Made by a program: the position numbers and the translations under genes. A DNA stretch of 64,000 nucleotides from Tenericutes bacterium HGW-Tenericutes-1 (GTDB lineage: Bacteria; Bacillota_I; Bacilli_A; Izemoplasmatales; Hujiaoplasmataceae), in NCBI GenBank assembly GCA_002839155.1, contig PGXM01000002.1, positions 121,586 through 185,585 of the forward strand, written 5' to 3'. The stretch's first letter is position 1, and every line of letters begins with the position of its first letter. Shown here piece after piece: positions 35,362-60,721 of this stretch. The notes beneath the pieces are model-generated. The model did not search any database. It saw nothing but the letters and a program-made list of their open reading frames with translations, and was not told where the DNA came from.

Positions 35362-38300
35362 CTATTTGATGACGATATTATCTAATGTTAATACGCCTGT
35401 ATTACCCGATGAAACGTTAATCATGAAAGATACAGAAGTCGTTGTATCAAGTAAACTACTTACTGCTACATAGACGTAAGTTCCTTCATCAGCATAACCA
35501 ATCGTTCCATATGTTGTTAGTTGTTGGAAAGAAGAATCATATGAGAATGCTTGGAAAGAGATTGTTCCAGCTAATTCTGCAGATGTTTTAACGTAAATTC
35601 CAACATATTCAGCTCCAAGTGCTTGTAATTGAGCTTTTGTAACGTTAATGCGAATACCATTGGTTCCAGTTCCATAATTTGATTGTAAAACATTATCTTC
35701 ACCAAGAGTCACTAGTTGACCATTGGCTGGGAGCCAAGAACTTCCACTAACTCTAAAGCCTACAAATGAGAATCCAGCTTTAAAGGCTGCATCGTCAGCA
35801 TATGCTTCAAAATCATTCAATACAGAAACGATTGATAATTTGATAACATAAGGTGTTGCGGCTTGTCCTTGCGAATCAGAGAAATTAACGGTAATGTCAT
35901 AAGAACCCATCAATGGAGCGGCTGCATTAAGACTGCCAATATTAAGCATAGCTTCTGTCGCAGCGATAACACCATCTTCAGCGTCATTAATTTGAATCAT
36001 GGAAAGTAATGAAGTTAATAATGCTTCAACGGATTCTCCAGCTTTTAACGTCATTCCAGCAATCGTTGCTTTATCAGCAACACTCATTGTGATAACTGGA
36101 GCTTCGTTCGGAGGTAATTGGATTTCTACTGGATATTTTTGAACTGAAGCAACATCTTTAACTGCTAGAAACTCATAAATCGTTAAAGAGCCTGTGCAAA
36201 CATTCCAAGTTTGGTTATCAAATCCAATTGCAAGGTCAGTAACTTGAGATGGTAATTTCCCTGCTGTAGATTGTGTATTGATGGTAACCCATCCGGATTC
36301 ACCGATTGCTGGTAAGTTCACGGTGTAAGCCATTTGGCTTCCAGACCAGTAAATCCAAACACTCATAGTTGTTTTATTTGTATTATTGGTAACATAGAAT
36401 GCTAGATTTGTGAATTCATCAGTGACACCTAATGATGACAAGGAAGCATATCTTCTTGCTAAGTACCAACCAGTTTGAGTAGCAGGTAATTCAAAGATGA
36501 ATCCGCCGTTTAAAGTATCAAGACCAAATAATGCGATTGGAGCTGTTTGGTTAACACCATTAATACGGTTGATCCATGTAGCTTCTAAAGCTGCTTCATC
36601 AGCATAATCAAATCCATCAACTTGAACATAATCTTCACCTTCAACAAGTGGATAGTAGACATGTTCAATTGCTAAATCTTTGATATAAATGGTATTTTCA
36701 GTATCGGATAAGAATCCATAGTCAAATTCCATTTTAGCACTATTTGCAGAAACGAATGACTCTTTGTCAACTGTGAAGTAAACATAATAAGTGACATACT
36801 CAGTTGTAATTCCAAAGCGGTTAACGCCACCTTCGAAATTGTCAATCCAAGGATCTGCAGCTAAAGTCGTACCGATTCTAACTTTTAAGTCAGTCGCTGT
36901 TGTTGCTTTAGCGACAACTTTAACACGGTATGTTTCACCAAATGTTAATACTGTGTTATCAAACATATTAGTTACTCTACCAACCATCCAGTCATAAGTA
37001 TAAGCTGGGATATTAGTAATTAAATAAGCATCTTCAACAGCATCATAAGCAATCGTAGAATTAGAAATTGTTCCAACAAGTGTCGTTTCACCAGTTAAAT
37101 CTTTTGCAGCTTCAACGATTGGTTGTTGTTCTTGAACTAAATCGAAATATTTAATATAGATATTGTTTGTAGCATCGGTTGGTAAGTATCCATACATAAA
37201 TTGGAATTTAGCGTTGCCATTAACCATTTCTTTGTCAACTGTAAATACTACTTGATAAGTAATATATTCAGTAGAAACAGCGATTGTAGTTAAGCCACCG
37301 TCAAAATTATCAATCCATGGATCTACCCATAACGTTGCACCAACACGGAAATAAATGTCAGTAGCTACATCGGCTTTCACTTGAATTTCAAATTTGTAAG
37401 TTTGTCCGAATACTAATTCAGATCCTGCATTGAAATAATATACCCATCTTGCATGATCCCATGGATCAACGTTAATGTCGATATTTGAAATCACATAAGC
37501 ACCTTCTACTGCATCAAATGCAACGGTAGAATGTGTTGGGCCTTCATCTGGAGTTCCAAGTGGAGTTCTTGAATCTTCATCCCAAATAATGTCAGTTACT
37601 GTGACTGTAACTGTTTTAGAAGATGAATTTCCTAAAGCATCGACGACTGTATAAGTTATTTCGAAACTACCTGAAGTCGTTGCAATTCCTTCTGCTGTGA
37701 AAGCATCAAGACCCGTAATAACAACGGATGAATTAGCAATTGTTCCATCAACATTGTCAACGACAGTTAATCCTTGTAAACCATCAAATGCATCGCCAAC
37801 ATTAATTACAAAGTCACCAACATTAATTGTAGGACCTTGTTTGTCTACGATTGTAACGTCAACTGCTAAAACTGTGATATTACCTGATAAGTCATAAACG
37901 GTATAAGTAACCGTATAAACACCAGCTACATTAAAGTTTAAGCCACCATTATCAACCATTTCTGGTAGAACAGCTATCTCACCATCAACAGCGTCGACTG
38001 CAGTCACTAATGTAGTTAAATCAACAGTCACATTCGTGAATTGGTCTAAGGTTGTTGGTACGCCTTCTTTAGGCGTAATAACTGGTCCAGTAACGTCAGC
38101 GTTAGCTGATGTTGAGACAGTTATTGTTAAGGTATAAGTAGTTGTATTATCACGTGAATCGGTTGCAGTATAAACAACATCATAAGATCCAGCAACTGCC
38201 ATATTAACAGCAGAAGCATCGATTGTAGGTGTTAATAACATATTTGACATATCATAGAAAGAAACATAGTCAGCCCATGTAGGAGCAGCGTCACCTTCTG

Positions 38301-40080
38301 TGAATTTCGTTGGAAGATTTGCGCCAACATGTTGAACATAGGTTGGAGGATCAAATTCAGTTACAACTTTGTACATTGCAACATCTTTAAATGTTGTAAC
38401 AGCGCCTGTTCCTGGCATATTCCAATTGGTATTTTGACCTAAGTTCAATTCAATTGTAAATTCAGATGAACCATTAGATGATACTAATGAATCTAACTTG
38501 AAGTAGTAATTGAATGTTTGATATTCGCTATTGATGTTTAATGAAATACTATTTCTTCCATCAAAATCATCAATCCATCCATTAGCTTGGTCAGTTACAA
38601 GACCCATTCTGAATCCCATTTGACGAGCGATCGCTGTTTTTACAGTAAATGTAAATAAATACCATTGATCAACTTCAAGATTAGCAGATGATTCTTTATA
38701 ATAAGTTCCTGCAGCTGATAACCAGTCCCCAAGTTTAATAACAGTAATGTTCATCGTACCTTCTGTTGCATTGTAAGTGATATCTACTTCACCATTATTA
38801 CTCTTTTCATTCCATAAGCCATCGCCTAAATTTTGGAATGTAGGATCAGTTAAGACACCAGCATCAACCAAGTTACCTACGATAACAGTTCTTTCAGCAG
38901 TGGTTTCATTACCACCATCATCGGTTACAGAATAAGTAACAACTTGTTCGCCAACAACATTAATATCAAAAGTACCCCATTCAATGATAATACTTGAAGT
39001 GATGTTCCCATCGATGTTGTCAACAGCTGTCGCTCGTGAAAGAAGTTGTGCTTCAAGTTCTTCTAAAGATCTTCCAACCGGATGAACTGCATCAGTTGCA
39101 GGTACGTTTAATACAGGAGCAACCATGTCGCGAACTTCTGCGAAAGCATAATCCACAGTTAAGTTTTCAACCGTTAAATCATTGGTATCAATAGCGATAA
39201 CTGCGTCAACTAATTCATCAACTAATACGAAGTACACTGTATATTCAGCGACTGTTGAAGTTAAGGCAAGCTCTCCTAAACTAGGTACTGCTGATCCTAA
39301 TGCCACTGAAATGTTTCCAGCAGCTGTAGCACTAGCACTAATTACCACTTTTAAATAAGTGAAATTAGCGATGGCTTCATTGATAATGCCGCCTGAGAAG
39401 ACTGGTGAAGACATAATTCCTGCTGCAGTTGTAAAGTTTTCTGCAGGGATATTAACTTCATCACCAAACACGAAATCGCCAAATGAAACTGTAATTACTC
39501 TAGTTGCAGTAGCATCATTACCAGCTTCATCTTCTGCGGTGTAAGTTAGAGTATAGGATCCTTCTTCCCAAATATTGACTGATCCTTCGACTGTTACATC
39601 AACTGATCCATCAACGGTATCAGTAGCACTGACACCGGTAAGAGGATTGAAACTTTCACCGACGTAAATCGTTTTGTTCGCTGTTCCGGTAATCAAAGGT
39701 GCTGCCGTGTCAGTAAATACGACCGTGACTGTTCTTTCTTCAACAGTAACATTGCCATCGCTATCCGTGACGGTATACGTTGCTGTATAAGTGCCAACAG
39801 CATTCGGATTGACATTCCCTGAGTACTGAACTTCGCTTGTTAAATCGCCATCTTCAACGTCTGTAGCTGTTACGCCTTGTAAAGGAACGAACACAGAGTT
39901 TTTCTCGATGGTAACATCGTCAACACCTAAAATAACAGGATCGTTATCAGTAGGAATTTGTGATGTCGTTGTGGTTGTACTAGTGGTTGTTTGAGTCGTT
40001 GTCGTTGTTGTTTTTTCAACGCAACCAATCAAAATAACCGATAGTAACATAAAACTTATTACCAACATTACTTTTTTCAT
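35362..40080 (-). CDS. Giant multidomain carbohydrate-binding lipoprotein
   Basis: A 1572-residue surface lipoprotein. Its signal peptide has lipobox LIGC (Cys20), followed by a poly-Thr linker (24-40). Ig-like/DUF5011-type modules are at about 46-122, 126-199, 320-401, 575-656, 665-745, 748-829 and 1325-1417. Between them lie six beta-sandwich modules of carbohydrate-binding type at about 203-315, 405-575, 835-985, 995-1143, 1150-1308 and 1420-1572. Three of these share a W-I-D-x-F motif (W502, W922, W1078). No catalytic motif is seen. The probable role is to hold polysaccharide at the cell surface for the ABC system, like SusE/F in function but unrelated. It is last in the long operon. Confidence 0.85.
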   Translation of the reverse strand: MKKVMLVISFMLLSVILIGCVEKTTTTTTQTTTSTTTTTSQIPTDNDPVILGVDDVTIEKNSVFVPLQGVTATDVEDGDLTSEVQYSGNVNPNAVGTYTATYTVTDSDGNVTVEERTVTVVFTDTAAPLITGTANKTIYVGESFNPLTGVSATDTVDGSVDVTVEGSVNIWEEGSYTLTYTAEDEAGNDATATRVITVSFGDFVFGDEVNIPAENFTTAAGIMSSPVFSGGIINEAIANFTYLKVVISASATAAGNISVALGSAVPSLGELALTSTVAEYTVYFVLVDELVDAVIAIDTNDLTVENLTVDYAFAEVRDMVAPVLNVPATDAVHPVGRSLEELEAQLLSRATAVDNIDGNITSSIIIEWGTFDINVVGEQVVTYSVTDDGGNETTAERTVIVGNLVDAGVLTDPTFQNLGDGLWNEKSNNGEVDITYNATEGTMNITVIKLGDWLSAAGTYYKESSANLEVDQWYLFTFTVKTAIARQMGFRMGLVTDQANGWIDDFDGRNSISLNINSEYQTFNYYFKLDSLVSSNGSSEFTIELNLGQNTNWNMPGTGAVTTFKDVAMYKVVTEFDPPTYVQHVGANLPTKFTEGDAAPTWADYVSFYDMSNMLLTPTIDASAVNMAVAGSYDVVYTATDSRDNTTTYTLTITVSTSANADVTGPVITPKEGVPTTLDQFTNVTVDLTTLVTAVDAVDGEIAVLPEMVDNGGLNFNVAGVYTVTYTVYDLSGNITVLAVDVTIVDKQGPTINVGDFVINVGDAFDGLQGLTVVDNVDGTIANSSVVITGLDAFTAEGIATTSGSFEITYTVVDALGNSSSKTVTVTVTDIIWDEDSRTPLGTPDEGPTHSTVAFDAVEGAYVISNIDINVDPWDHARWVYYFNAGSELVFGQTYKFEIQVKADVATDIYFRVGATLWVDPWIDNFDGGLTTIAVSTEYITYQVVFTVDKEMVNGNAKFQFMYGYLPTDATNNIYIKYFDLVQEQQPIVEAAKDLTGETTLVGTISNSTIAYDAVEDAYLITNIPAYTYDWMVGRVTNMFDNTVLTFGETYRVKVVAKATTATDLKVRIGTTLAADPWIDNFEGGVNRFGITTEYVTYYVYFTVDKESFVSANSAKMEFDYGFLSDTENTIYIKDLAIEHVYYPLVEGEDYVQVDGFDYADEAALEATWINRINGVNQTAPIALFGLDTLNGGFIFELPATQTGWYLARRYASLSSLGVTDEFTNLAFYVTNNTNKTTMSVWIYWSGSQMAYTVNLPAIGESGWVTINTQSTAGKLPSQVTDLAIGFDNQTWNVCTGSLTIYEFLAVKDVASVQKYPVEIQLPPNEAPVITMSVADKATIAGMTLKAGESVEALLTSLLSMIQINDAEDGVIAATEAMLNIGSLNAAAPLMGSYDITVNFSDSQGQAATPYVIKLSIVSVLNDFEAYADDAAFKAGFSFVGFRVSGSSWLPANGQLVTLGEDNVLQSNYGTGTNGIRINVTKAQLQALGAEYVGIYVKTSAELAGTISFQAFSYDSSFQQLTTYGTIGYADEGTYVYVAVSSLLDTTTSVSFMINVSSGNTGVLTLDNIVIK
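36652..37578 (-). repeat. Tandem duplication of a carbohydrate-binding module
   Basis: This segment encodes residues 835-985 and 995-1143 of the giant lipoprotein. The two copies align along their length, sharing WIDNF, FGxTY, a TEY-x-TY block and FTVDKE. A more diverged third copy is encoded at about 38362-38862. Confidence 0.8.
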
Positions 40081-40135: not shown

Positions 40136-41095
40136 TTAGTTACCAGCGATGCCTGATCGGTCAACGCCTTCTACGAACCATTTTTGTGCAAATAAATAAA
40201 CGAGTAATAAAGGAGCAATTGAGATAAGTGTCATGGCATATTGAACCCCTGTATTATAAATACTATTGACGGTATCAAGTGTCACTTGACCTTGTGAATA
40301 CATTGAACGATACATATTGATATAACTTTCTAAACTCATTGGTAATGTCGTATAAACACTGCCAAAATAAAGTCTTGCTAAAGAAGTTTCATTCCAGTAC
40401 CAGACAAAGGAATATAATCCACAAATGAGAAATGCTGGCGCAGCCATCGGAATGGCAATCGTAATAAACGTTCTTAACGGACCGGACCCATCCATTTCTG
40501 CTGCTTCAAACAATTCATGTGGAATAATTCGGAAAAACTGGTAGAAGATTAATATAAAGATTGTTTGTCTTATGCCATTGCCAAAGAGAGCAGGTACCCA
40601 AAATGCTCTAATTGAATCCATGAGTTGTAAATCAATGCCAAAGATCGATAAATCGCGGTAAAGAACTGTGGTAGGAATATACGTCAATACCGTTGGAATC
40701 AAGAACATCGCTAACATCATACCCATCAGTACTTTTTTACCAAAGAATTGATAATGACCAAATCCATAGCCGATGAGTGCAGAGGATATCACAGTTGCGA
40801 GCGTTGGATAGACGGAAACTTTTAAAGAATCCGAAAATGCTTCAAAGAAATTCATCCACTCAAACGCATTAACATAATTCAAAATCGTAAAATTTCTCGG
40901 AATCCAGGATATCGATGTGTCGATTAAGTCTTCTAAACTCATGATTGACATCGATAACATCGATAACAAAGGATATAAGAAGATAAAACTTATGCCAGTT
41001 AATAAGATATAAAGCACAATTTTAAATAAGAGTCCATCATTGCCTTTTCTGCCTAAGAGTACACGTTTTAGATTCATTGATTTAAGTGAATTCAT
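40136..41095 (-). CDS. Carbohydrate ABC transporter permease, MalG-type (pair A)
   Basis: A 319-residue inner-membrane permease with six helices. The EAA loop that docks the ATPase is ELFEAAEMDGSGPLRTFITIAIPMAAPAF. It is the MalG/CUT1-like member of permease pair A and follows its MalF-type partner by nine bases. The substrate is probably a mannan- or glucan-derived oligosaccharide, from context. No ATPase gene is present in the window. AGGAGG precedes the ATG. Confidence 0.92.
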   Translation of the reverse strand: MNSLKSMNLKRVLLGRKGNDGLLFKIVLYILLTGISFIFLYPLLSMLSMSIMSLEDLIDTSISWIPRNFTILNYVNAFEWMNFFEAFSDSLKVSVYPTLATVISSALIGYGFGHYQFFGKKVLMGMMLAMFLIPTVLTYIPTTVLYRDLSIFGIDLQLMDSIRAFWVPALFGNGIRQTIFILIFYQFFRIIPHELFEAAEMDGSGPLRTFITIAIPMAAPAFLICGLYSFVWYWNETSLARLYFGSVYTTLPMSLESYINMYRSMYSQGQVTLDTVNSIYNTGVQYAMTLISIAPLLLVYLFAQKWFVEGVDRSGIAGN

Positions 41096-41104
41096 CGTAT
41101 CCTC

Positions 41105-42172
41105 CTATTCATACCGTCTTGAAGCGAGTTTAATAACCAGTGTATACCCGCCGATGACCGTTAATTCAATAGCGAATAAAATCCATGAGAGCGCCGCTGA
41201 ATACGCTCGTCCGTAATTGACTTCATCGGCCAATGTACCTGCTAAAGACCCTGAAGCATCTGAACTGGAGTTAATGATGGAAACAATCGCATTGTTTGAT
41301 AAATTTGAATAGACAATCGTTGTATAGATAATGTTGATGTACATTAGAGGGATTAATGCAGGTAATGTAATTTTCCAAAACAATTCCCACATGGAAGCTC
41401 CATCAATCTCTGCGGCTTCATACGTCGAAGCATCCATTTTTTGTAATCCTGCTAGGAAGATTAAAATTTGAACCCCAGAAAGCCAAAGAATTAAAACGAT
41501 CTTTTCAAATGCTTGAGCGACAATTTCCGAAAATATCGCTGGAAAATAGTCGGTTAGAAAGGATGTAATTGTTCCATTCGCAATTGCCGGAACCGTTAAT
41601 AATCCGTTAGACTGGAAGTTCGCTAACATGTTTCCTGAAAGCAAAATAACCGGGATAAAGAAAATGGTTCTAAAGATGGCTCTTCCTTTTAATTTTTGGT
41701 TGAGCATTAATGCTAGGATTAATGCAAATATGACAACGAGCGGTACGACTAATGATACATCTTTTAACGTATCTAATATTTGTGTAAGATGGTAAGGCTC
41801 ATCGGAGAAAATGCGTTTAAACTGGGTGAAATCATACCAATTGCCTGTGATTTGCCAACCTTGATTGACAATATAATAGTATTTGTCGGACAAGGCCATT
41901 CGAATTGATTTCGCTAAAATTGGAATACCAATCGCAATCATACCAATCAACCAAGGCAAGATAAACAAGATGCCATAAATCGCTTTTTTAATTTTATTTG
42001 GTAAGCGATTCAATTGTTTTTTAACCCATAACAATCCTGTATACTTCAAAATAATTAAGATGATTGGGTTAACTTTTTTCTTGAAGAATGTTTTAATCGG
42101 TGTCCAAATTTTAACTAAAAATAATTTTACTTTTAAAAGGATAGATACGATATTATTTATAATTTTTTTCAT
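41105..42172 (-). CDS. Carbohydrate ABC transporter permease, MalF-type (pair A)
   Basis: A roughly 355-residue permease. An unusually long, basic N-terminal extension (about 60 residues rich in Lys, with a hydrophobic helix) precedes the six-helix core. The EAA loop is TYEAAEIDGASMWELFWKITLPALIP. The DUF5696 gene's TGA overlaps this gene's ATG (TGATG at 42174-42170), so translation is coupled. A GTG one codon earlier is possible. It pairs with the MalG-type gene downstream. A solute-binding protein specific to this pair is not adjacent. Confidence 0.92.
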   Translation of the reverse strand: MKKIINNIVSILLKVKLFLVKIWTPIKTFFKKKVNPIILIILKYTGLLWVKKQLNRLPNKIKKAIYGILFILPWLIGMIAIGIPILAKSIRMALSDKYYYIVNQGWQITGNWYDFTQFKRIFSDEPYHLTQILDTLKDVSLVVPLVVIFALILALMLNQKLKGRAIFRTIFFIPVILLSGNMLANFQSNGLLTVPAIANGTITSFLTDYFPAIFSEIVAQAFEKIVLILWLSGVQILIFLAGLQKMDASTYEAAEIDGASMWELFWKITLPALIPLMYINIIYTTIVYSNLSNNAIVSIINSSSDASGSLAGTLADEVNYGRAYSAALSWILFAIELTVIGGYTLVIKLASRRYE

Positions 42173-44499
42173 CACGGTTTCACCACCCTATAAGTATTCG
42201 GTGCGACCGCAATTCCAACATCGACAACTTGAACGAGATTGGTGTAATTCACATAAACTTTTGTGCCATTTTGATAAATACTTTCAGAGACTCCTTGATG
42301 AATATAACGGTGAGATATCATTTCTTGTCCACCGATATCATTTAAGACCGCTTGTGTTTTCATCCCTATATCAAGAATAATGTCATCCCATAAATCATAT
42401 TGTGAAGTATAAATATATTGAGAGTTGGTATAACGAAGTTTATGGGTGGATTCCTTGGTAATTAAGAATGAAGGTTCCATGCCATATTCAATGAGTCTTA
42501 AAGCTAATAAGTCATAATCACTCACATAATTAACATAGGAAGAAACGAGTCTAGAGGATCCATTAAGAACAAGTTGAACAAAAGGAATTGAATCAGTAAT
42601 ATAAGCATATTTGTTGGATTCAACAGGTGCTTGATAATACGTATCAGTTGATTTCCATAAATAGCTGTTGGGTTGATAAAGTCCCATTTGATAAGCAGCT
42701 AATGCTTCTATTTCACCTTGGATGATAGATAAAGCTTGGTTTCGGTAATAATTGATTTGATTATCACGGTAAGAGAATAAGGAAGAACCTACCGTTGATA
42801 GAGCAAGAGAGTCAATACCAAGATTTTCATACAATCTACTAAATTTTAATACCTTATCTGCGACTTCTTCAGGATTCGTATAATACGTGTAAGCGAATAA
42901 AGAAGATCTCGTAGCGGAAGTCGCAAAGGAAGACAAAGTAATTTTTTTAACAACCCCTGAACCCAGGGTAGCTTGATAAGAAATCAATGGATTTGATTGA
43001 AAATAAATGTCAACCGAATTCTCGTTTAAATAAGACATCATTTCAAGAAAATCGCGTTTTCCACCGAGCTTTGAACTGGTAACAGGTTTCATTAATTCAT
43101 TATCGTAATAACCACCTTTATTCCAACCGGTGTAAACAATGTTTAACCCATTTACGCCAAGTGTTTTTAATTCCGATGCAATTGTAACGACATCATCGTA
43201 AGTGGTCATCGGTACATAGTTCTTACCAAATAATCCCCCTTTATAATCCATTCCAAGTAACGTTAAATTGAGACCTGATCCTTCTTTTGTTTCCCGGTCA
43301 AGCGTTAAAACATCTTTGTACACTTGGGCCATACCCGAGTAACTAGCGTCCGTATTTGAAATAAAATAATACGTCACCACATAATCAGTGGGATAAGGAT
43401 CAGTATTAATCAATTGGAAAGAATCAGACGAATTTGAAGAGGTTTGAATGGTATAACGTTCTCTGACGATGAATTTAAAGAACGTTGTATTGAGTGGATA
43501 AGCATTATATCCATACGGATATGAATGAATTTCAGCAAAACTATCGCCTTCAGTCATCACCGCTAAGAAAGCTGCTTGTTGATATCCGTGATTAACGCCA
43601 AAAGCTGGATAACTCGCCGTTAATTCATTTTGAAGATAATAGGTTGATGATTCTGCCTTAAAGGCTGAAATGCCTTCATCAACGCCATATATTCGTTTAG
43701 TATAAGCGGTGGATGAACGCACGTTTGTATAGCGAATAAGTGCGCCTGATCCATCGGGAATCATGGAATAACCATTGATTTCATAGTTATTAGATCCGAA
43801 GTAAGGAAAAACATAAACTGATTTTAAACGGTAAGACGTTGTTTTAATCGTAGTGGTTCCATCAATATTTAAAACCGGTTTTTCGATGTCACCTTCAACC
43901 AATGAATCGATAGGTAACGTTACTTTTAACTGTCCTTCTTCAATATAAACCATTACATCAAATTCAATAGCTTGATCTTTGAAATTGAGATGGGCTTTAA
44001 ATCCTTGTTCAACTGATTCATAATCATAATCAACTTCAACGTTATATTTGGTTCCTGATACATAACTTTTTGAGTCTTCAACCAAGATATTGTCAAGGTT
44101 ATAATATTCAATAATAACGCCTGATTCAACGAAGAATCTTGAGGTTCCTGAGAGTCCTAATTGTAGGTAATCCGGATAAACTGAATACCAGATATATCCA
44201 CTTGCTTTATCAAGAACTGCAATTTGGAAATAACGTTCTTTGACATAAAGTTTTAGTTCATCCGTTTCGCTAACCGCTTGATATCCAAGTCCGAGCAATT
44301 TTATCTCTGGAGCAGCGTCAATTTCAACGGGAGTCGTATTTTCAGCTTGACCAAAGAAATTTGAATCGGTTGATAAATTGTAAGTCGATTGCTGTAATAA
44401 TCCTGTGATATTTTTGTTTTTCGCTTGAATCATTGGAATGATTAAAAACAAAGAGAGTGAAGTGATAACTAATCCTAGCAACCAAAATTTCTTATTCAC
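42172..44499 (-). CDS. DUF5696-like membrane-anchored extracellular protein
   Basis: A 775-residue protein with an N-terminal signal-anchor helix (about residues 5-25) and an extracellular body. Residues 60-330 look like a beta-supersandwich. Residues 400-650 alternate helices and strands like a TIM barrel (LGVNGLNIVYTGWNKGG, LGIDSLALSTVGSSLFSYRD, IPFVQLVLNGSSRL). This plan is shared by several glycoside-hydrolase clans, so it may be an unassigned glycosidase. No catalytic residue can be proven. It resembles the DUF5696 family as I recall it. It starts at GTG 44499 after AAGGAAG, overlaps the YIP1 gene by eight bases and is coupled to permease pair A. Confidence 0.7.
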   Translation of the reverse strand: MNKKFWLLGLVITSLSLFLIIPMIQAKNKNITGLLQQSTYNLSTDSNFFGQAENTTPVEIDAAPEIKLLGLGYQAVSETDELKLYVKERYFQIAVLDKASGYIWYSVYPDYLQLGLSGTSRFFVESGVIIEYYNLDNILVEDSKSYVSGTKYNVEVDYDYESVEQGFKAHLNFKDQAIEFDVMVYIEEGQLKVTLPIDSLVEGDIEKPVLNIDGTTTIKTTSYRLKSVYVFPYFGSNNYEINGYSMIPDGSGALIRYTNVRSSTAYTKRIYGVDEGISAFKAESSTYYLQNELTASYPAFGVNHGYQQAAFLAVMTEGDSFAEIHSYPYGYNAYPLNTTFFKFIVRERYTIQTSSNSSDSFQLINTDPYPTDYVVTYYFISNTDASYSGMAQVYKDVLTLDRETKEGSGLNLTLLGMDYKGGLFGKNYVPMTTYDDVVTIASELKTLGVNGLNIVYTGWNKGGYYDNELMKPVTSSKLGGKRDFLEMMSYLNENSVDIYFQSNPLISYQATLGSGVVKKITLSSFATSATRSSLFAYTYYTNPEEVADKVLKFSRLYENLGIDSLALSTVGSSLFSYRDNQINYYRNQALSIIQGEIEALAAYQMGLYQPNSYLWKSTDTYYQAPVESNKYAYITDSIPFVQLVLNGSSRLVSSYVNYVSDYDLLALRLIEYGMEPSFLITKESTHKLRYTNSQYIYTSQYDLWDDIILDIGMKTQAVLNDIGGQEMISHRYIHQGVSESIYQNGTKVYVNYTNLVQVVDVGIAVAPNTYRVVKP

Positions 44500-46600
44500 G
44501 TAAAATCACTTCCTTTATGATGTCTGTGACAAAGTTCGTCACTTGAATGACCATTAAATACACCATAATGAGGACAACAATAATAATAACCATCATTAAA
44601 ATTGTTAAAATGAAATTAACAATCGTTTGTCCAACGCTATAGTTATGCGTTTCTTTAATGTTGAAGAATAATAAAATCCCTACCCAAGCAAGCATGACAA
44701 CATTGCCCATTGAAAATAAGAACGCCTCATTCAACGTGATAAAATTAGAAATGATAATAACGAAAGGATAAATAATAAAGACAGGCATTAATGCACCAAC
44801 GGTATTAATGAAGGTTGCTTTAAACGTCCCTTCTCCTTCCATCAATGAGGACATCAAGTAGTTCGCGATGATAAATATCAAGATGGGTAATAATAACGTT
44901 AAGCTTTCTTTGAAGAGAATTGTTTCTTCAGGAATGACGTTATTAAAGATAAATCCAGTAAATAAAATTGCAAGTATATGTAATACAAATAATCCACCCA
45001 GAATAATCCAAGCTGTTAAAAATGAAGCTTTCTTTTTAGCCTTGACTTCGTAACAAGCATCAGCTGGATGTTTGATAAACCGAAACATAAAACTTATTTC
45101 TCGAGGGATTCGGTATTTTTTGACTTGACCGATTGTTTCACCAACATGGGTCAAATAATGATACTTTTTATTGGTCAAGTTAACGGTGATAAGCACTGCT
45201 GCTAAACCAAGAACAACATAAAGTAGCATAGAGACATTTTGCGTCATCCATAAATTTCTGATTTCCCAGTAAGCTTCAGAATAATCGGCTTGATCATAAG
45301 CAATTTTGAACTGTTCTAACGCCAGTTCATATTCTTCATTCATTAAATAACCTAAACCAATTCCACGGTAAGCCATATCGAGCATCGAGTTATATCTTAA
45401 TACTTCTTGCCACACTTCAATGCTTTCGACGTACCTTGCTTGATTGAATAAATCTAAAGCTTCATGCACTTGAAAAGCAAAAGGTGTTTCACGAAATACT
45501 TGAATGGAGTTACGGCTGGTATGGTCATCGAGTACATAGATATTGTTATTGGAGTCTGTCGCAATCGATGAAGCTGATAAGAACAAGCCTAATTTATCAT
45601 TACCTGTTCCTTTTCCCCCCCATAAAAACAAGAGGTTTCCTTGACTATCATATTCTGCTAAAAATCCTGCTGAAGTGACAGTATAAATGTTTCCAACGTC
45701 CCCTGCCCAAGCATCAACGATATCCGCATACACAAACATTTCTTCTGAGAAATAATTGGTTCCGCCGATATTCACTTTTTTCAAGTTATCGCCTAATGCT
45801 GAGTCAAGTGGCTTTTGAGTAACAGTATAGAAATAGCCCTTGTTATCTAAGGTGATATTTGTTACAGGAGCTGGGATATTTTTCGTCAAATAAACGTTAT
45901 CATTATTGGCATAGATAATTCTTTGAATTCTTTCCCATAAGGTGATATCAATGTTGTTAGATGCAAAGTAATCGATGAAACGATTGCTTGCATTAATCAT
46001 CAACACACCAGAGGTGGTACCTTCATTGATGACGTACATCGTAAAGTTTTGATCAACCGCAATTTTTAACGGTCTAAAAATAAATCCATCCGTTTCTAAA
46101 ATTGGACTGCTGGGTGTTGATAAAACATCCACTAATTCAATTGCTTCTTCTAAGGTATCTTTTGACTTATCAAAATGCCAAATGTAGATACTACCTATAT
46201 CAGTATTCGCTTGGCCAACGCCATAATCAGCGACATAGATATAATCTTCAACGACGAAGATACCTAACGGTTTGATGAGTAAATCTGAACCAAAAGTATA
46301 AACTACTTGTAAATCTGAATCTAAGATGACGACACGTTTATTGCCAGTATCAGCGATATACATATAATCATCAGAATCGATAAACATATCTTTAGCGCCA
46401 TTCAACTTCGAACCATCGGATAACGTTCTAACCATGTATACAGCTTCGTACGCTTCATTGGTTTCCGATAATTGATGGTTTCTATCTACGGTATATGTTT
46501 TATAAGCTGATGCAGCTTCTACGGTGGGTGATAGGAATGTTATCGCCCCAAATATAATAAATGTTAATAATAGTAATAAGACATATTTTTTATGGTTCAT
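44492..46600 (-). CDS. NHL-propeller/TPR/YIP1 membrane protein
   Basis: A 702-residue protein of unusual make-up. A signal peptide (residues 1-29) leads into an extracellular NHL/beta-propeller (about 65-370, with the NHL motif IADTGNKRVVILD at 82-94). TPR-like helices follow (about 380-445, ALDLFNQARYVESIEVW and YELALEQFKIAY), then a membrane helix near 460 and a C-terminal YIP1-type five-helix domain (about 500-695). NHL propellers bind proteins, RNA or glycans. The role of bacterial YIP1 domains is unknown. It lies between the two permease pairs and overlaps the DUF5696 gene, implying it assembles with the transporter. Confidence 0.8.
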   Translation of the reverse strand: MNHKKYVLLLLLTFIIFGAITFLSPTVEAASAYKTYTVDRNHQLSETNEAYEAVYMVRTLSDGSKLNGAKDMFIDSDDYMYIADTGNKRVVILDSDLQVVYTFGSDLLIKPLGIFVVEDYIYVADYGVGQANTDIGSIYIWHFDKSKDTLEEAIELVDVLSTPSSPILETDGFIFRPLKIAVDQNFTMYVINEGTTSGVLMINASNRFIDYFASNNIDITLWERIQRIIYANNDNVYLTKNIPAPVTNITLDNKGYFYTVTQKPLDSALGDNLKKVNIGGTNYFSEEMFVYADIVDAWAGDVGNIYTVTSAGFLAEYDSQGNLLFLWGGKGTGNDKLGLFLSASSIATDSNNNIYVLDDHTSRNSIQVFRETPFAFQVHEALDLFNQARYVESIEVWQEVLRYNSMLDMAYRGIGLGYLMNEEYELALEQFKIAYDQADYSEAYWEIRNLWMTQNVSMLLYVVLGLAAVLITVNLTNKKYHYLTHVGETIGQVKKYRIPREISFMFRFIKHPADACYEVKAKKKASFLTAWIILGGLFVLHILAILFTGFIFNNVIPEETILFKESLTLLLPILIFIIANYLMSSLMEGEGTFKATFINTVGALMPVFIIYPFVIIISNFITLNEAFLFSMGNVVMLAWVGILLFFNIKETHNYSVGQTIVNFILTILMMVIIIVVLIMVYLMVIQVTNFVTDIIKEVILRE

Positions 46601-46601
46601 A

Positions 46602-47558
46602 TTATTTAATCCCCGAGTAAGCCATGGTATTCATCACACTATTTTGTAAGATGATGAAGAGTAAAATATTTGGTAAGAACATGATTAAGCTGGCAGCTGC
46701 ACTCATTCCTTGCGCAGCGATAGCCGATGTTCCCATTGTTAAGGTTGAGAAATAATAGGGTAATGTTTTTAATGCCTCACTATTGACATATAAATCTGAA
46801 GTTTCAATATTGTTCCAACTGTTTTGGAAGGCTAATATCGCCACCGTTGCGAGTGCTGGTTTAACTAAAGGCATGACGACTTTTAAGTAAATTTGCCACT
46901 TATTAGCACCATCGATAACCGAAGCTTCATAGAGTTCTCTTGGTACTTGGTCCATAAACTGTTTCATTAAGAAGACCCCCACTGGCATCGCAAGTAACGG
47001 AATAATATGAGCGAAGATGGTGTTGGTAATCCCCAGTGAATTCATTACGATAAATCTAGGAACCGATATTGCGACAGGAACAATCATGATCGCAATTTGA
47101 TTGAGGGTAAACAACGTCTTTTTAACCCGATACTTTAAGAATGAGAATGAGTAAGCCGCAAGTGATCCAATCAAAATTGATAAGAAAATCACTGAAGCAC
47201 TTGAGATAATACTGTTAAATAAATATCGTGCAAAATGAACTCCTGTTTGTGAAGCAGCTAAAAAGAGATTTTGAAAATTATCAAAAGTGATTCTTGACGC
47301 AAAGATTCTAGGTGGGTAAGCATACAGTTCATCCAGTGGTTTAAAAGCATGTGAAATAATATAAATTAACGGTAATAAAGTGACAATTAAGAATGGAATC
47401 AAGATTAACAAAAACTTCAGTTGACTGACATGAAATCTTGAAGGATTAATCATCGTTCCTTGGAACTTCGATTTGCGGTTCTTCCGCATTTTTTTATACT
47501 TGAACATGGCTTTCTCGGTCTTCGTCATGTTCTTCTTTTTATGGAGTAGTTTCATCAT
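46602..47558 (-). CDS. Carbohydrate ABC transporter permease, MalG-type (pair B)
   Basis: A 318-residue CUT1 permease with a basic N-terminal tail of about 45 residues and six helices. The EAA loop is ELYEASVIDGANKWQIYLKVVMPLVKPAL. Its ATG overlaps the stop of the partner permease gene (ATGA), so the two are translationally coupled. With the upstream MalF-type gene it forms pair B, directly downstream of two solute-binding protein genes. The substrate is inferred from the locus to be a beta-mannan or beta-glucan oligosaccharide. Confidence 0.92.
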   Translation of the reverse strand: MMKLLHKKKNMTKTEKAMFKYKKMRKNRKSKFQGTMINPSRFHVSQLKFLLILIPFLIVTLLPLIYIISHAFKPLDELYAYPPRIFASRITFDNFQNLFLAASQTGVHFARYLFNSIISSASVIFLSILIGSLAAYSFSFLKYRVKKTLFTLNQIAIMIVPVAISVPRFIVMNSLGITNTIFAHIIPLLAMPVGVFLMKQFMDQVPRELYEASVIDGANKWQIYLKVVMPLVKPALATVAILAFQNSWNNIETSDLYVNSEALKTLPYYFSTLTMGTSAIAAQGMSAAASLIMFLPNILLFIILQNSVMNTMAYSGIK

Positions 47559-48472
47559 TTTTTCTCACCAAACAACTTATGAGAAATTTTGTTAAATGAC
47601 AATACAATGATTAACAAGATAACAGACATGGCCGAGGCATATCCCATTTCATAACGTGCAAATCCATAATCATTCATATGGTCAACGATCAACCAACCAG
47701 CAAATTGTGGCGGTGGTACTGACCCTGATAAAGCTGAAGCTAATCCGGAAGCATTAAATGTTCCTACGATGGCCATCACAGCGCCGAATAACATTTGCGG
47801 TTTCATCGACGGAATGGTAATGTAAAAGATTTCTTGCCATCTTGATTTCATGCCATCGACGTAAGCAGCTTCATATAAATCTTTGTTAATGTTTAAAATA
47901 CCTGATAACATCGCTAAGAAACCAACACTCATAGAAGACCAAATTCCAACGAATATCATAATTCCAAATATCATATCAGAATTCTGAAGCCATTGAATGG
48001 GTTCGTTAATAATCCCTAGAGTTAATAAATAATAATTCAAATAACCCCTTGTATCACCAGAGAAAACAACTTTCCAAATAACAGACATTAGCACTCCGTT
48101 GGTTAATGATGGAGAGTATAAAATAATGGCGATTAAAGTTCTTAATTTATGCGTGATTTGCGATAATATCCAAGCCATTAAAAACGATAAACCATAACTT
48201 CCTGGACCAATGATTAAAGCATATTTAATCGTTGTAGGTAAGGCATATTGCATAAAATCGGTATCTTGTGTAAATAATGCAACGTAGTTATCGAGTCCAA
48301 TCCATGTTGGAAAATTAATCGTATCATAATACGTCAATGATAAAACAACGGAGATTACAATTAATATAACGACCAAAGTGAAGAAGACAACCATGTATGG
48401 TAATGCAAATAAATAGGATGTATTAAACTTCTTTTTAACAGGACGCGCTTGTAATGCTTGACTAGTCATCAT
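47555..48472 (-). CDS. Carbohydrate ABC transporter permease, MalF-type (pair B)
   Basis: A 305-residue CUT1 permease with six helices. The EAA loop is DLYEAAYVDGMKSRWQEIFYITIPSMKPQM. It overlaps the end of the giant solute-binding protein gene by 11 bases, and its ribosome-binding site (AAAGGAGG) lies inside that gene. Its stop overlaps the start of the MalG-type partner. The order SBP-MalF-MalG is standard for CUT1 importers. The ATPase is missing from the locus. Confidence 0.92.
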   Translation of the reverse strand: MMTSQALQARPVKKKFNTSYLFALPYMVVFFTLVVILIVISVVLSLTYYDTINFPTWIGLDNYVALFTQDTDFMQYALPTTIKYALIIGPGSYGLSFLMAWILSQITHKLRTLIAIILYSPSLTNGVLMSVIWKVVFSGDTRGYLNYYLLTLGIINEPIQWLQNSDMIFGIMIFVGIWSSMSVGFLAMLSGILNINKDLYEAAYVDGMKSRWQEIFYITIPSMKPQMLFGAVMAIVGTFNASGLASALSGSVPPPQFAGWLIVDHMNDYGFARYEMGYASAMSVILLIIVLSFNKISHKLFGEKK

Positions 48473-51452
48473 CGCCGTATGCCTCCTTTATCCAATGATT
48501 AATATTCGAATTCATCGGAACAAAGTAAACTTCACCATTAGGATTCGTCGATGTTGCATAACCAAATTCATCGAATTTTCGGTTTAATTCTCGTGTTACC
48601 CGTGGAATTGATTCATTGATTGCCACAGAGGGATTCATCAAATCAATGACAATCTTGTTCCAAATGGAAGAAAGTTCACGTTCAACAATGTAACTGCCTG
48701 GAGTAACCGCTGGAATTCTTGACCATTTCGCTTGATTGATGATTTGTTCTTTTATCCCTGAATCCCATACAGAAGCTTCTAAGGCATTCATATTCGCAGA
48801 TAAAATTAAGAACTTTTCACCTAATCCCGTTTTAATGTTTTGCATAAATTTGATTTGTGTCTCAACGGAATTCCACCATTTAATTAGCTGCCAGCCTTCG
48901 TCCATCATATCGGAGTTTTCAAATAAGATAGAAGCTTTTCCGTAGGTTGTCGACCATCTTTCTATGGTGCCGTCATCATTGGAATCTCTTCCAGGAACAA
49001 CAGTAACTCCCCACTGACCAGACAATTCCGGAGCGGCATATTTTAATTGTAGATAGAGGTCAATCGTCGATATTCCGATTGGCATGTCACCGCTCCGGAA
49101 ATGTTCGAAAAAGGAGGAAACTTGTAAAGGTAAATTATAAATCGTAAAGAGTTCGGTCATAAACTTAATGGCTTCGACCGTCGTTGGATCTTTCAACGTC
49201 GAAGATATTCCGTTTTCAGTGAATATTTCGCCGCCAAATTGATAAATTAAGGAACTCGTATACCCATAGCCTTTAAAAGCAGCGTCGCCACCTAAAGGAT
49301 GGTAAAAGTTCATTTGATGACTTTGTAATATTGGTAACATGTTCAAGACATCCGTCCAGGTATTGGGAACATCTAAATCTAAATAATTTAAAATATCTTT
49401 TCGGTAGAATAATAAGAACACGCTTTGTGTTTCTGGGATTGCATAAACGCCTTCTTCAAATATGACGGGCGTAAAGTTATTTGCATAATAATTAGAAGTC
49501 ACTTCATCAAAATCATCGTACTCAGATAGATCTTTTAACATGCCTCTTAAAGCATAAGCATAAGGATTCCAGTTGTCGATGGATAAGACAACATCTGGAT
49601 TATCGTTGGTTGCGTTGGATAAAACGATTTTTGAAGTATTACTTAAAATGGATGCTTTAACTTTTATACCAGTTTCGGTCGTAAAGTCTTGATCAATCAT
49701 GCTTTGTAAAATATCTAAATACAAACTTGATTGTCCAACCCATACTTCTAACGTCCCTTCTTCAATCGCGGCATCATTATATCTTGTATCGAAGAATGAA
49801 TAAAAGAAACTTCTAATTCCATCCCAAATGCGACTAAAGAACGATCCATTGGGTTTTGGTAAAGTAACATCATTATATATATAGATTGCATCAATATTGA
49901 GCGGTTGTGATAATAAAGCCGCAATCGCATTACCTATGAGTTGATAAGCAGAGCCGCTACCTTCGGAAAACTCAGCTAATTTCGAACCAATACGGTTCGG
50001 TGTTTTCGCAACTCGTCTTAATTGTTTTGCGGCGACATTGAGCGTCGAAATTTCCGCAGCAGACGTTGTTCCTTCATCAAAAAGACTTAACGTTTCATAA
50101 ATTGATTCGAGTTTTTCGGCGTAGGAGAGTAAATCTGCTTCGAGTGTTGGAATATATTTAAGAATATCCCAGTCGATGGCATCATCAGGATTTCCACCGG
50201 TAATAGTTTGAACTAACAAACTGATGGAACTGATTTCATCCATTATTGTATTAAGTTCATCGATTGCTTCCATATACTGACTAACGGTTGATTCAATTGA
50301 AATCGTGTGATGACCTTCCGTCAAGTAGAAACGATATTCCGCTTCTCCACCCAGAGTCACATTCGTCCATTTCTTCATCGTGTCAAAGGTTAATGCACTG
50401 AGTTCAGAGAATAATATTTCTCCATCAATATAGATGTTCTTTCCAGCAGCAACACCGGTATTTGCATTTTTTAACGCTTTAAAAGCAATTTGATAATACC
50501 CCGTTTTATCAACATCAAATTCATAGGTTACTAACGTTCCCCCTCTTGACATTGATCCACCATCTAATTGATTTAAAACCGTGTTTTTATAGGAATAAGG
50601 CGTCATAGCTGTTTCTTTGTAATAACTTGATTTGATTTCCAAATCGTTTTTTGTGGTAAAACTTTCACCTTGGATTGTAATGATTTCTCCTTCTGTATTA
50701 GAAGGCAAATCATTTGTTGAGGATAAATATGTATCGTAATCTATCAATGATTCATGACCTTTAACATACAGATTGCCAATATAAATCGGTAAATTTAAGG
50801 CCCTGATCGTAATAGAATTATTGCCTGAGTTTAATAAGAATTTGTAATTATCAATAGAATAGCCATTATAGTCATCGGCATAATACTTTTGCCAAGACTG
50901 AATTGATTCGCTTTTTGGCAGCAATTCATTGCCATAACGGTTATATCTTAATGCTTCTTCAAGTGGGACAATTTCCCACAATACTTCTAATTCTAAATCA
51001 TCCATCTCGTTGTATTGAGAAGCATCATTAATTAAAATTTGAACGGATGGAATTGTATAGTAGGCTTCTGGCATGAAAAAATCAAAACCAATCTCATAGA
51101 GTCCCGTTTCACTGACATTGACTTCTAACGTGATTTCTTCACCATTGTCTAATGAAGCAACATCATTGGTATACTCACTAGACGTCACAAAATCAACATT
51201 CGGATTCGCATTTTTGAATGTTGAAATTAAGATGGTTTGTTCCTCAAGTGAGATATAATTATAAGTCTTCAACCAAGTATTCAATTTTCTGTAGTATGTG
51301 GCGTTTCTAAAAGCACTCATATCATAGGTGTCTTCAATATCAACATCTACTTCTTCAGTATCATAAATCATTGAAGATACATAAGCGATACGGTGAATAC
51401 CAATCAGTGTAAGCAACATACTCAGTGATAAAAAAGCCAGTAATTTTTTCAT
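48462..51452 (-). CDS. Giant membrane-anchored solute-binding protein fusion
   Basis: A roughly 996-residue protein. The N-terminal hydrophobic segment (about residues 2-30) has no lipobox cysteine and is probably a signal anchor. Two beta-sandwich domains follow at about 90-225 and 255-390. The second has CBM6/35-like features (YEFDVDKTGYYQIAFKA, GHHTISIES). Next come a helical linker (390-520) and then a family-1-type solute-binding domain (about 565-970: GTLEVWVGQSSLYLDILQSM, DNPDVVLSIDNWNPYAYALRGML). Normal SBPs are about 400-450 residues. AAGGGG before the ATG at 51452 decides the start. It probably hands oligosaccharides to permease pair B. Confidence 0.82.
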   Translation of the reverse strand: MKKLLAFLSLSMLLTLIGIHRIAYVSSMIYDTEEVDVDIEDTYDMSAFRNATYYRKLNTWLKTYNYISLEEQTILISTFKNANPNVDFVTSSEYTNDVASLDNGEEITLEVNVSETGLYEIGFDFFMPEAYYTIPSVQILINDASQYNEMDDLELEVLWEIVPLEEALRYNRYGNELLPKSESIQSWQKYYADDYNGYSIDNYKFLLNSGNNSITIRALNLPIYIGNLYVKGHESLIDYDTYLSSTNDLPSNTEGEIITIQGESFTTKNDLEIKSSYYKETAMTPYSYKNTVLNQLDGGSMSRGGTLVTYEFDVDKTGYYQIAFKALKNANTGVAAGKNIYIDGEILFSELSALTFDTMKKWTNVTLGGEAEYRFYLTEGHHTISIESTVSQYMEAIDELNTIMDEISSISLLVQTITGGNPDDAIDWDILKYIPTLEADLLSYAEKLESIYETLSLFDEGTTSAAEISTLNVAAKQLRRVAKTPNRIGSKLAEFSEGSGSAYQLIGNAIAALLSQPLNIDAIYIYNDVTLPKPNGSFFSRIWDGIRSFFYSFFDTRYNDAAIEEGTLEVWVGQSSLYLDILQSMIDQDFTTETGIKVKASILSNTSKIVLSNATNDNPDVVLSIDNWNPYAYALRGMLKDLSEYDDFDEVTSNYYANNFTPVIFEEGVYAIPETQSVFLLFYRKDILNYLDLDVPNTWTDVLNMLPILQSHQMNFYHPLGGDAAFKGYGYTSSLIYQFGGEIFTENGISSTLKDPTTVEAIKFMTELFTIYNLPLQVSSFFEHFRSGDMPIGISTIDLYLQLKYAAPELSGQWGVTVVPGRDSNDDGTIERWSTTYGKASILFENSDMMDEGWQLIKWWNSVETQIKFMQNIKTGLGEKFLILSANMNALEASVWDSGIKEQIINQAKWSRIPAVTPGSYIVERELSSIWNKIVIDLMNPSVAINESIPRVTRELNRKFDEFGYATSTNPNGEVYFVPMNSNINHWIKEAYGDDD

Positions 51453-51458
51453 CTTATA

Positions 51459-51492
51459 CCCCTTGTAGGGGGCCGCCATTTTCATGACGGCC
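51459..51492 (-). other. Intergenic hairpins between the two SBP genes
   Basis: A stem GGCCGTCAT / ATGGCGGCC (51492-51471, one wobble pair, 4-base loop) is followed by a small CCCC / GGGG hairpin whose G arm overlaps the ribosome-binding site of the giant SBP gene. There is no T-run on the transcribed strand, so it is more likely an mRNA stabiliser or expression divider than a terminator. Confidence 0.55.
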
Positions 51493-51502
51493 ATCAATTT
51501 TT

Positions 51503-53023
51503 TTAGTCTAGTAAATCTTCAATCAGTTGATCTAAAGTTTCTCTTGCAGCCGTCATGGCTTGCATTGCTTCTGTTTGTAAAATATCTTTTACTGCAGCGT
51601 AAGTCGTTTCTCCGACCATCGTTTGATAGAGATATTGATATGCAACGGAGTCAGCTTCATCCCATCCAACCACTTCTTTATTGACCCAGTAAGCGCCATT
51701 CTTCAGTGATTCGATGAATTCTGGAGAAGTAAAACCAGGTGCAGTAATTCCATAAGGAATCGTTTCCCAGACTGCATTGACGCCTTGTCCATCAATACCG
51801 TAATCAACGATTGGATAACCGTAGTTGTTTGCTGAGATATAGACTTGATCTGAGTAATCTTCAAACAGTTGATATCTCGTGAGCAAACCATCTTCACTAT
51901 AAGACATAAACTTTAAGAATTGATAAGCAGCGGCTTTATGTTGGCTCGTTGAAGCGATTCCGGCGATATCTGTGTTACCACCTGTTACGCCATTTGGTCC
52001 TGGGTAAATGTCCCAGTTAAAGAGCATTTGACTAAAATAGTTTTTAGCACTCCAAGAAGCATCTCTCCATAACGCAACTTTACCGTTTGCGGTTGGAACA
52101 AAGGCAGGATCTAAATACCATTCTTCTAAAGTCTCAGCACTGAGAGCGTCAACGCAGTAACCGCCATTGACTGCTTCAGTTAAATAGGTCATGGCTGATA
52201 AGAAGACCGGATCGTCGAAATTAAATTTTGTACCGTCAAATGAATAAGATTGCCATAATTTTGCAATCGCGATTTCTTCTTCTGTGGTCGCAGCTGCTAA
52301 TTTTAAGACTTTTGGTAATTCACGGTTGAAGAACGAACAACCATACATGCCAAGAATGTGTAAGTTTTCATTGGTTGTTGCTTGAGCAATCGATTGCATT
52401 TGTTCAAACGTCCAATCATAAGAAGGAATAGCAACGCCTGCAGCTTCCAAAATATCAAGATTGACAATCCACATCGTTGGATAAATAAAAGTTGGAATGG
52501 CATATCTTGTATCTTTATACATTCCTAAATCATGAACTGAATCAAAGATATAATCTGTATCAGGATCATTTTCAAAATATTCTGTGATATCCGCCAAAAT
52601 GTTATAAGGTAAGAAACTTGCTAAACGGTTGACTAAGAAAACGTCAGGTAATGTTCCTGATTCTGCAGCCGCTACGAAGTTTGAATCCCATTCTTCGCTA
52701 GATGCACCCATCATTTGAATATTGACGGTGATATTGGGATATTTTTCCATAAATGCATTGACCATCAATGATTCAATCGTTACGATATCCGCACTGGTAT
52801 GTTGCCAAGTTGAATACGTCAATGTGATTTCTTCTTCAGTCCAATCTTCAATGCCATTCGCATCTTGATCCCAATAAGTTGGGGTTAATGGTTTGGTCGT
52901 TGTTGAATTTGAACTTGAGGTCGATTGCGTTGAAGAAACAGTTGTTGTCGTGGTTTTTTCAGTACAAGCAACCATTGAAAATATAACGCCGAGTAGTAAA
53001 AAACTTAGTAAATATTTTTTCAT
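51503..53023 (-). CDS. Sugar ABC transporter solute-binding lipoprotein
   Basis: A 506-residue extracellular solute-binding protein. It has a signal peptide, lipobox MVAC (Cys20), a Thr/Ser-rich linker (24-47), then a family-1 SBP fold with the opening TLTYSTWQHTSADIVTIESLMVNAFMEKYPNITVNIQMMG. It should capture oligosaccharides at the cell surface for a CUT1 importer, with pair B the nearest. A strong AAGGAG ribosome-binding site is present. The hairpin after its stop could allow higher expression than the permeases. Confidence 0.92.
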   Translation of the reverse strand: MKKYLLSFLLLGVIFSMVACTEKTTTTTVSSTQSTSSSNSTTTKPLTPTYWDQDANGIEDWTEEEITLTYSTWQHTSADIVTIESLMVNAFMEKYPNITVNIQMMGASSEEWDSNFVAAAESGTLPDVFLVNRLASFLPYNILADITEYFENDPDTDYIFDSVHDLGMYKDTRYAIPTFIYPTMWIVNLDILEAAGVAIPSYDWTFEQMQSIAQATTNENLHILGMYGCSFFNRELPKVLKLAAATTEEEIAIAKLWQSYSFDGTKFNFDDPVFLSAMTYLTEAVNGGYCVDALSAETLEEWYLDPAFVPTANGKVALWRDASWSAKNYFSQMLFNWDIYPGPNGVTGGNTDIAGIASTSQHKAAAYQFLKFMSYSEDGLLTRYQLFEDYSDQVYISANNYGYPIVDYGIDGQGVNAVWETIPYGITAPGFTSPEFIESLKNGAYWVNKEVVGWDEADSVAYQYLYQTMVGETTYAAVKDILQTEAMQAMTAARETLDQLIEDLLD

Positions 53024-60705: not shown

Positions 60706-60721
60706 TGCAAAGCTCCTCATG

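Follow-up and report, generated by a model that had tools for sequence, protein, structure and literature searches.

Gene order and conservation of the locus

The window analysed here, 64,000 nucleotides of contig PGXM01000002.1 from Tenericutes bacterium HGW-Tenericutes-1, carries eight consecutive minus-strand genes for components of ATP-binding cassette (ABC) sugar importers and two further membrane proteins. In transcription order (window coordinates) they encode a CUT1-type extracellular solute-binding protein (SBP) that is a lipoprotein (51503..53023), a giant SBP of 996 residues (48462..51452), the permeases F1 (MalF/UgpA-like, 47555..48472) and G1 (MalG/UgpE-like, 46602..47558), a membrane protein combining an NHL beta-propeller, TPR and YIP1 domains (44492..46600, here the YIP1 protein), a membrane-anchored DUF5696 protein (42172..44499), and a second permease pair, F2 (41105..42175) and G2 (40136..41095). 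The original prediction, a model's reading of the sequence alone, had described eight consecutive, mostly overlapping genes with these domains; the open reading frames and Pfam matches bear out the genes and their domains and show them to be co-oriented and nearly gap-free. Its length for the giant SBP is reproduced by the likeliest start, an ATG at 51452 within the open reading frame 48462-51497; given this start, the gap to the SBP lipoprotein gene is about 50 bases. The overlaps that it emphasised are present at four of the seven junctions (4, 8, 4 and 11 bases) but not at every one, and two others have gaps of 1 and 9 bases.

The eight genes form a real, widespread and tightly conserved module. 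We annotated 84 loci (30 from relatives, 40 from named GTDB records and 14 divergent), which include duplicate contigs and of which about 76 are non-identical; gene order was scored only as far as each contig extends. Within that limit the eight-gene order is kept in all 84, and this recurrence of the identical order shows that the arrangement is not due to chance. The YIP1 gene directly precedes DUF5696 in 84/84 loci, and F2 and G2, separate or fused, come after DUF5696 in every locus whose contig continues. Conservation of YIP1 and DUF5696 with dual permeases, which had been proposed as a neighbourhood test, is thus established for these loci. Core junctions lie within 20 bases in 92-100% of cases, while the SBP gene is set further apart (median gap 45 bases).

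The module occurs in many Bacillota and their Mollicutes-like kin: Izemoplasma and Acholeplasma relatives, Paenibacillus (where the original prediction had rightly placed similar neighbourhoods), Cohnella, Herbinix, Lachnospiraceae, Defluviitaleaceae and other Clostridia. PF18952, the DUF5696 family, was found in 43 of 61 relatives (24 of the 30 that are of high quality), with up to four copies per genome. The genome studied here has a second module copy (L021, G000:C11:30000-49500). On a tree of F1 and G1, modules of one genome can belong to different clades, and 11 modules form a deep clade (L091-L094, L096, L098, L101, L102, L023, L024 and L042).

A reverse search with the YIP1 protein found it in 48 genomes of a 392-genome sample. 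No unpaired YIP1-NHL protein was seen in that sample when the matches were compared by eye with the DUF5696 list (best three candidates per genome, contig ends allowed for); apparent orphans occurred only in genomes with three DUF5696 candidates already listed, or at contig ends. Among the loci examined, full-length DUF5696 was confined to the module; L105-L110 (about 600 residues), which at first sight break this rule, are GH129-like enzymes scoring above the Pfam threshold. Versions with F1/G1 only or F2/G2 only were not seen in these searches, which were seeded with DUF5696 and YIP1 and would miss versions lacking both.

Properties of the encoded proteins

All four window permeases match BPD_transp_1 over the Pfam cut-off (F1, 40.6 bits; G1, 64.2 bits; F2, 27.7 bits; G2, 55 bits). 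Their best NCBIfam relatives are GlcU, UgpA/UgpE and MalF/MalG, all under the equivalog cut-offs. The EAA loops, at which the ATPase docks, were judged from an alignment of each family's orthologues. E and G are retained in 72/72 F1 and 71/71 G2 sequences and D-G in 73/73 G1 sequences; F2 retains E in 69/70 and G in 62/70. Losses in F1, F2 and G2 suggested by a regular expression were mostly pattern artefacts. With the loop retained throughout the four families, neither pair looks degenerate, and a decayed second pair is ruled out. Mean identity is highest for F1 (59%), the most conserved module gene, followed by G1 (55%), G2 (42%), F2 (39%) and the other four families (28-36%). Three loci (L041, L099, L100) encode F2 and G2 as a single fused protein of about 620 residues; they form one clade and count as one event, and the fusion is good evidence that F2 and G2 pair with each other. 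One locus (L095, 10853-13639) encodes an F2 with a charged, coiled-coil-like N-terminal extension of several hundred residues, a length unique among the loci examined.

The draft assembly contains a single OB_MalK-type ATPase match over the cut-off. Its gene lies outside the window module, about 2 kb downstream of the second module, four genes past G2 and on the same strand. In Paenibacillus mangrovi (L089) a MalK gene is directly upstream of the giant SBP gene. An ATPase that serves several importers at once is known from MsmX.

The SBP lipoprotein has a lipobox-like VAC and matches SBP_bac_1 (59.5 bits) and PDB entry 22hh, an SBP of family 1 (1e-24). It is the most divergent module protein (mean identity 28%), and from this divergence and its looser gap it is likely to be an exchangeable specificity part. 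The giant SBP of the window has no Pfam match of its own; SBP_bac_1 matches 20/26 of its orthologues. Its AlphaFold model, with a predicted local distance difference test (pLDDT) score of 86, shows an N-terminal anchor that looks uncleaved, beta-rich regions at about 70-240 and 257-390, a helical region at about 392-515 and a MalE-like SBP domain at about 561-960. The N-terminal beta-rich part matches CBM35 in 3/26 orthologues. The C-terminal domain matches 5ci5, CbpB and Lin1841 and is close to Tlet_1705; it resembles beta-glycan-binding SBPs, of which CbpB and Lin1841, a binder of beta-1,2-glucooligosaccharides, are examples.

The YIP1 protein matches Yip1 (PF04893, 35.7 bits, cut-off 28.6) and NHL (30.5 bits, cut-off 20). 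Yip1 is matched by 31/31 orthologues; TPR is under the cut-off in the window protein, and TPR families match 16-21 of the 31. Its profile also matches NHL propellers and TPRs in the PDB. Hydropathy gives a signal sequence, an extracellular part (residues 25-454) in which propeller and TPR are acidic, a transmembrane helix (455-473), a loop (474-531) and the Yip1 transmembrane domain. The loop is probably cytosolic because it is basic, with 12 lysine or arginine to 4 aspartate or glutamate residues. Most deep-clade modules encode NHL-TPR and YIP1 in two adjacent genes. YIP1 had been said to lack any known role in bacterial sugar uptake. This holds in that the reported role is in efflux, but the family does have an ABC accessory in YknW, a modulator of how the ABC complex YknXYZ is assembled (PMC4887032). 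A 2019 review lists prokaryotic Yip1 relatives without reported function (PMC6682643), and Yip1 genes also occur in bacteriocin clusters with ABC genes.

DUF5696 of the window scores 451 bits to PF18952 (cut-off 25.6) and has an N-terminal helix predicted to be a membrane anchor. Its AlphaFold model (pLDDT 86) contains the GH129 fold, an N-terminal beta-sandwich and a TIM barrel, and best matches the GH129 enzymes 5opq, 8rzk and NagBb with template-modelling scores, normalised to the target, of 0.70-0.73 (0.70-0.71 for the PDB entries 5opq and 8rzk). A profile search lists 8rzk at E 0.0006, and hhalign against Bacillota GH129-like enzymes gives 97.4% probability (E 1.4e-11). The reference catalytic pair, nucleophile D435 and acid/base E478 in the GH129-like alignment A10, aligns with S568 and Y608 of the window protein, the acid/base column being approximate and less certain than the nucleophile column. 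Lacking this Asp/Glu pair, the window protein is not classed as a GH129 enzyme. Of 76 DUF5696 sequences, 2 are acidic at both positions, 43 at one and 31 at neither. An active GH129-type enzyme is thereby ruled out as the general case, and the GH129 fold combined with so rare a complete pair leads us to read DUF5696 as most likely a membrane-held, glycan-binding pseudo-enzyme.

Activity through a catalytic arrangement unlike that of GH129 would suit the GH129-type barrel and the acids found singly, in 41% of sequences at the nucleophile and 21% at the acid/base position. We consider it improbable, given both the scarcity of complete pairs and the conservation of the barrel half, where no columns other than 418 and 671 have acids in more than 80% of sequences, and each of these shows D/E exchanges. 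The GH101/GH129-like Bacillota proteins of about 600 residues mentioned above (L105, 8236-10059; L106, 9053-10945; L107, 8227-10017; L108, 8359-10350; L109, 8048-9943; L110, 8620-10476) have an intact-looking catalytic pair (YLDVFTC...SSEE) and an unrelated gene context. Two that were scanned cross the DUF5696 cut-off at 64 and 41 bits, so the PF18952 annotation mixes two things.

Pairwise identities of the eight families are strongly correlated (r 0.84-0.96). With the common trend removed, the strongest residual link is that between YIP1 and DUF5696 (0.66), followed by DUF5696 with the two SBPs (0.57 and 0.55), F1 with G1 (0.55) and F2 with G2 (0.49). As far as sequence co-variation can indicate, this pattern fits two permease cores and one extracellular assembly.

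Neighbouring genes and predicted substrate

In transcription order, the mannan genes precede the module and a large lipoprotein follows it, all on the minus strand. Upstream are a GH2 mannosidase-like gene (61761-63977) truncated by the window end, its N-terminal part lying beyond the window, a LacI regulator (60722-61732), a secreted Big_2 protein (58318-60720) that resembles the DUF5060 protein, a cellobiose/mannobiose 2-epimerase (57060-58292; 292 bits to cellobiose 2-epimerase in the PDB), two GH130 genes of beta-1,4-mannan catabolism (55955-57127 and 54929-55951) and a DUF5060/GH5-like protein (53058-54932) with PDB matches to the DUF5060 protein 9gmj and to GH5 mannanases. One phosphorylase gene beside the module is of the mannosylglucose type (524 bits to 5ay9), and a GH130 there is mannooligosaccharide phosphorylase-like (471 bits to TM1225, 377 bits to 5ayd). 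These neighbours make up a beta-1,4-mannan pathway, and beta-1,4-mannan is the most likely substrate in this genome.

The gene that follows G2 in the window (35362..40080) encodes a giant surface lipoprotein of 1572 residues with six Ig-like domains (Bact_surface_Ig-like, 175 bits, six stretches) and weak CBM4_9 similarity. Similarly placed giant proteins are found in relatives (L051-L053, L061), and large proteins also come after G2 in mannan-clade relatives.

Elsewhere the gene right after G2 is GH144, an endo-beta-1,2-glucanase family whose identity was checked against 5gzh, in 23 loci and GH16 in 19; other enzymes near modules are GH94, SOGP, GH35, GH30, GH5 and GH3. Module phylogeny tracks these substrate labels, which require 12 changes on the F1+G1 tree against 31.8 after shuffling. 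The neighbouring enzymes lend support to the beta-glycan substrate originally proposed; the chains may also be long, as that proposal had it. Deep-clade modules (L042, L092, L098, L101) have GHL10, NAGPA, GH3, GH84, DUF4127 and DUF624 genes as neighbours, and it is speculation that cell-wall amino-sugar polymers are the substrate there.

Interpretation and comparison with known systems

On balance, we favour the reading that the module is a CUT1-type importer with fixed accessory subunits, among them YIP1 as an assembly factor, that takes up oligosaccharides from beta-linked polysaccharides, here likeliest beta-1,4-mannan. The evidence for it is genomic and structural-predictive. Polymer would be cut by surface enzymes, as the neighbouring secreted glycoside hydrolase-like genes suggest, and the fragments may be held at the membrane by the SBP lipoprotein, the anchored giant SBP and DUF5696, consistent with their folds and with the loss of catalytic residues from the last. 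The giant SBP, encoded next to F1/G1, would pass the glycan to that pair. F2/G2, which have docking loops and can be fused, may be a second translocation core or a second port of the same system. Both pairs would be powered by the single MalK/MsmX-type ATPase found, encoded elsewhere. The membrane-spanning YIP1 protein could tie the extracellular parts to the permeases, much as YknW acts for YknXYZ. Inside the cell, the epimerase and the two GH130 phosphorylases would use mannobiose and longer mannooligosaccharides by a pathway known from related systems.

Several points weigh against this reading. It is just as conceivable that each permease pair is an importer of its own. Operon co-inheritance raises all the correlations, and similar evolutionary rates may account for part of the residual signal. 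The beta-glucan or mannan label might not cover the deep, mostly split-YIP1 clade, and activity is possible in some DUF5696 members, namely the 2/76 with acids at both catalytic positions.

The rival that survives best, a serious one though short of even in our estimate, holds that the operon encodes two independent CUT1 importers, giant SBP with F1/G1 and SBP lipoprotein with F2/G2, which take fragments of different size or type and of which only one is served by YIP1 and DUF5696. Each pair has full EAA loops, residual co-variation is higher within pairs (F1-G1 0.55, F2-G2 0.49) than across them, and F2-G2 fusions occur with no fusion bridging both pairs. On the other side, the pairs always occurred together in the loci examined, YIP1 and DUF5696 stand between them wherever a contig covers both, and no single-pair module was seen, although searches seeded with DUF5696 and YIP1 would miss one without both.

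A single two-channel machine is plausible, yet the gene overlaps, from which the original prediction had deduced fixed stoichiometry and a single machine, do not in themselves imply either. A stronger form, in which YIP1 is the scaffold of a single super-complex that joins both permease pairs to an array at the cell surface made up of the two binding proteins, the propeller and the pseudo-glycosidase receptor, is a tentative proposal that we think doubtful. If it were true, single-membrane bacteria would have a machine specialised in taking in large fragments of beta-glycan, comparable in function to SusCD and built from ABC components.

YIP1 and DUF5696 might alternatively stand apart from the transporter as a surface sensor or substrate-retention unit that signals to, or feeds, a conventional importer. 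DUF5696 resembles a binding pseudo-enzyme, NHL propellers are common binding domains, and these two proteins show the strongest residual co-variation (0.66). We regard this as unlikely: Pfam scans of the window proteins and YIP1 orthologues detected no signalling domain in the two proteins, a LacI regulator is already present at the window locus, and the strict position between two permease pairs favours a role in transport. An exporter made of F2/G2 and YIP1, for glycan or surface polymer for instance, would resemble YknWXYZ and agree with reported Yip1-ABC systems being efflux systems (PMC4887032) or bacteriocin clusters, but is very improbable, as F2/G2 belong to the type I importer permeases and carry EAA loops, neither an exporter ATPase nor a membrane fusion protein is encoded alongside them among the eight genes, and the nearby enzymes are degradative.

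The importer reading gives DUF5696, a family without known function, a predicted structural identity as a GH129-fold pseudo-enzyme and a context, and gives bacterial YIP1 proteins an ABC importer partner that is testable in culturable Paenibacillus or Cohnella. We found no mention of DUF5696 in the open-access literature, and no description there of the module or of YIP1 tied to a sugar importer (subscription papers were outside the scope). Judged by that literature, it looks new for a sugar importer to include a YIP1 membrane protein and a binding protein that resembles a broken enzyme.

Known systems resemble the module in part. The GH129/GH101 glycosidases NagBb, ZgGH129 and EngBF share fold and profile similarity with DUF5696, which differs in lacking a conserved nucleophile and acid/base and in having an N-terminal membrane anchor. 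YknWXYZ of Bacillus likewise links a Yip1-family membrane protein to an ABC transporter, but YknYZ is a MacB-like exporter that acts with a membrane fusion protein, whereas the module has type I importer parts and a YIP1 protein with NHL and TPR outside; neither a MacB-like permease nor a MacA-like membrane fusion protein appeared in Pfam scans of the eight genes. The Listeria innocua beta-1,2-glucan cluster, as far as the consulted parts of its descriptions go, is similar in its SBP domain (Lin1841, 5ysb, 1e-24) and in having GH94/SOGP, GH3 and GH144-type enzymes, as some modules do; those parts describe an ordinary SBP and ABC genes and mention neither YIP1, DUF5696 nor a second permease pair (PMC12369401, PMC8861115). 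SusCD of Bacteroidota is comparable by analogy only, in that a polysaccharide locus there too couples the capture of glycan at the surface to an importer of its own; the module relies on ABC importers, and Pfam scans of the eight genes and their flanks found no TonB-dependent channel or SusD family.

The closest relatives are the CUT1 importers with a shared MsmX/MalK ATPase. The module has their sequence features, namely BPD_transp_1 permeases in MalF/MalG-like pairs with EAA loops, an extracellular SBP, no ATPase in the operon and a single OB-domain MalK/MsmX-type ATPase in the genome. It departs from them in its two permease pairs, its two SBPs, one of them giant with extra domains, and the constant presence of YIP1-NHL and DUF5696. 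By the usual view, an ABC sugar importer requires one permease pair, a single SBP and an ATPase. That two pairs, two SBPs, a pseudo-glycosidase and YIP1 are kept across distant Bacillota and several polysaccharides means that the extra parts must pay for themselves.

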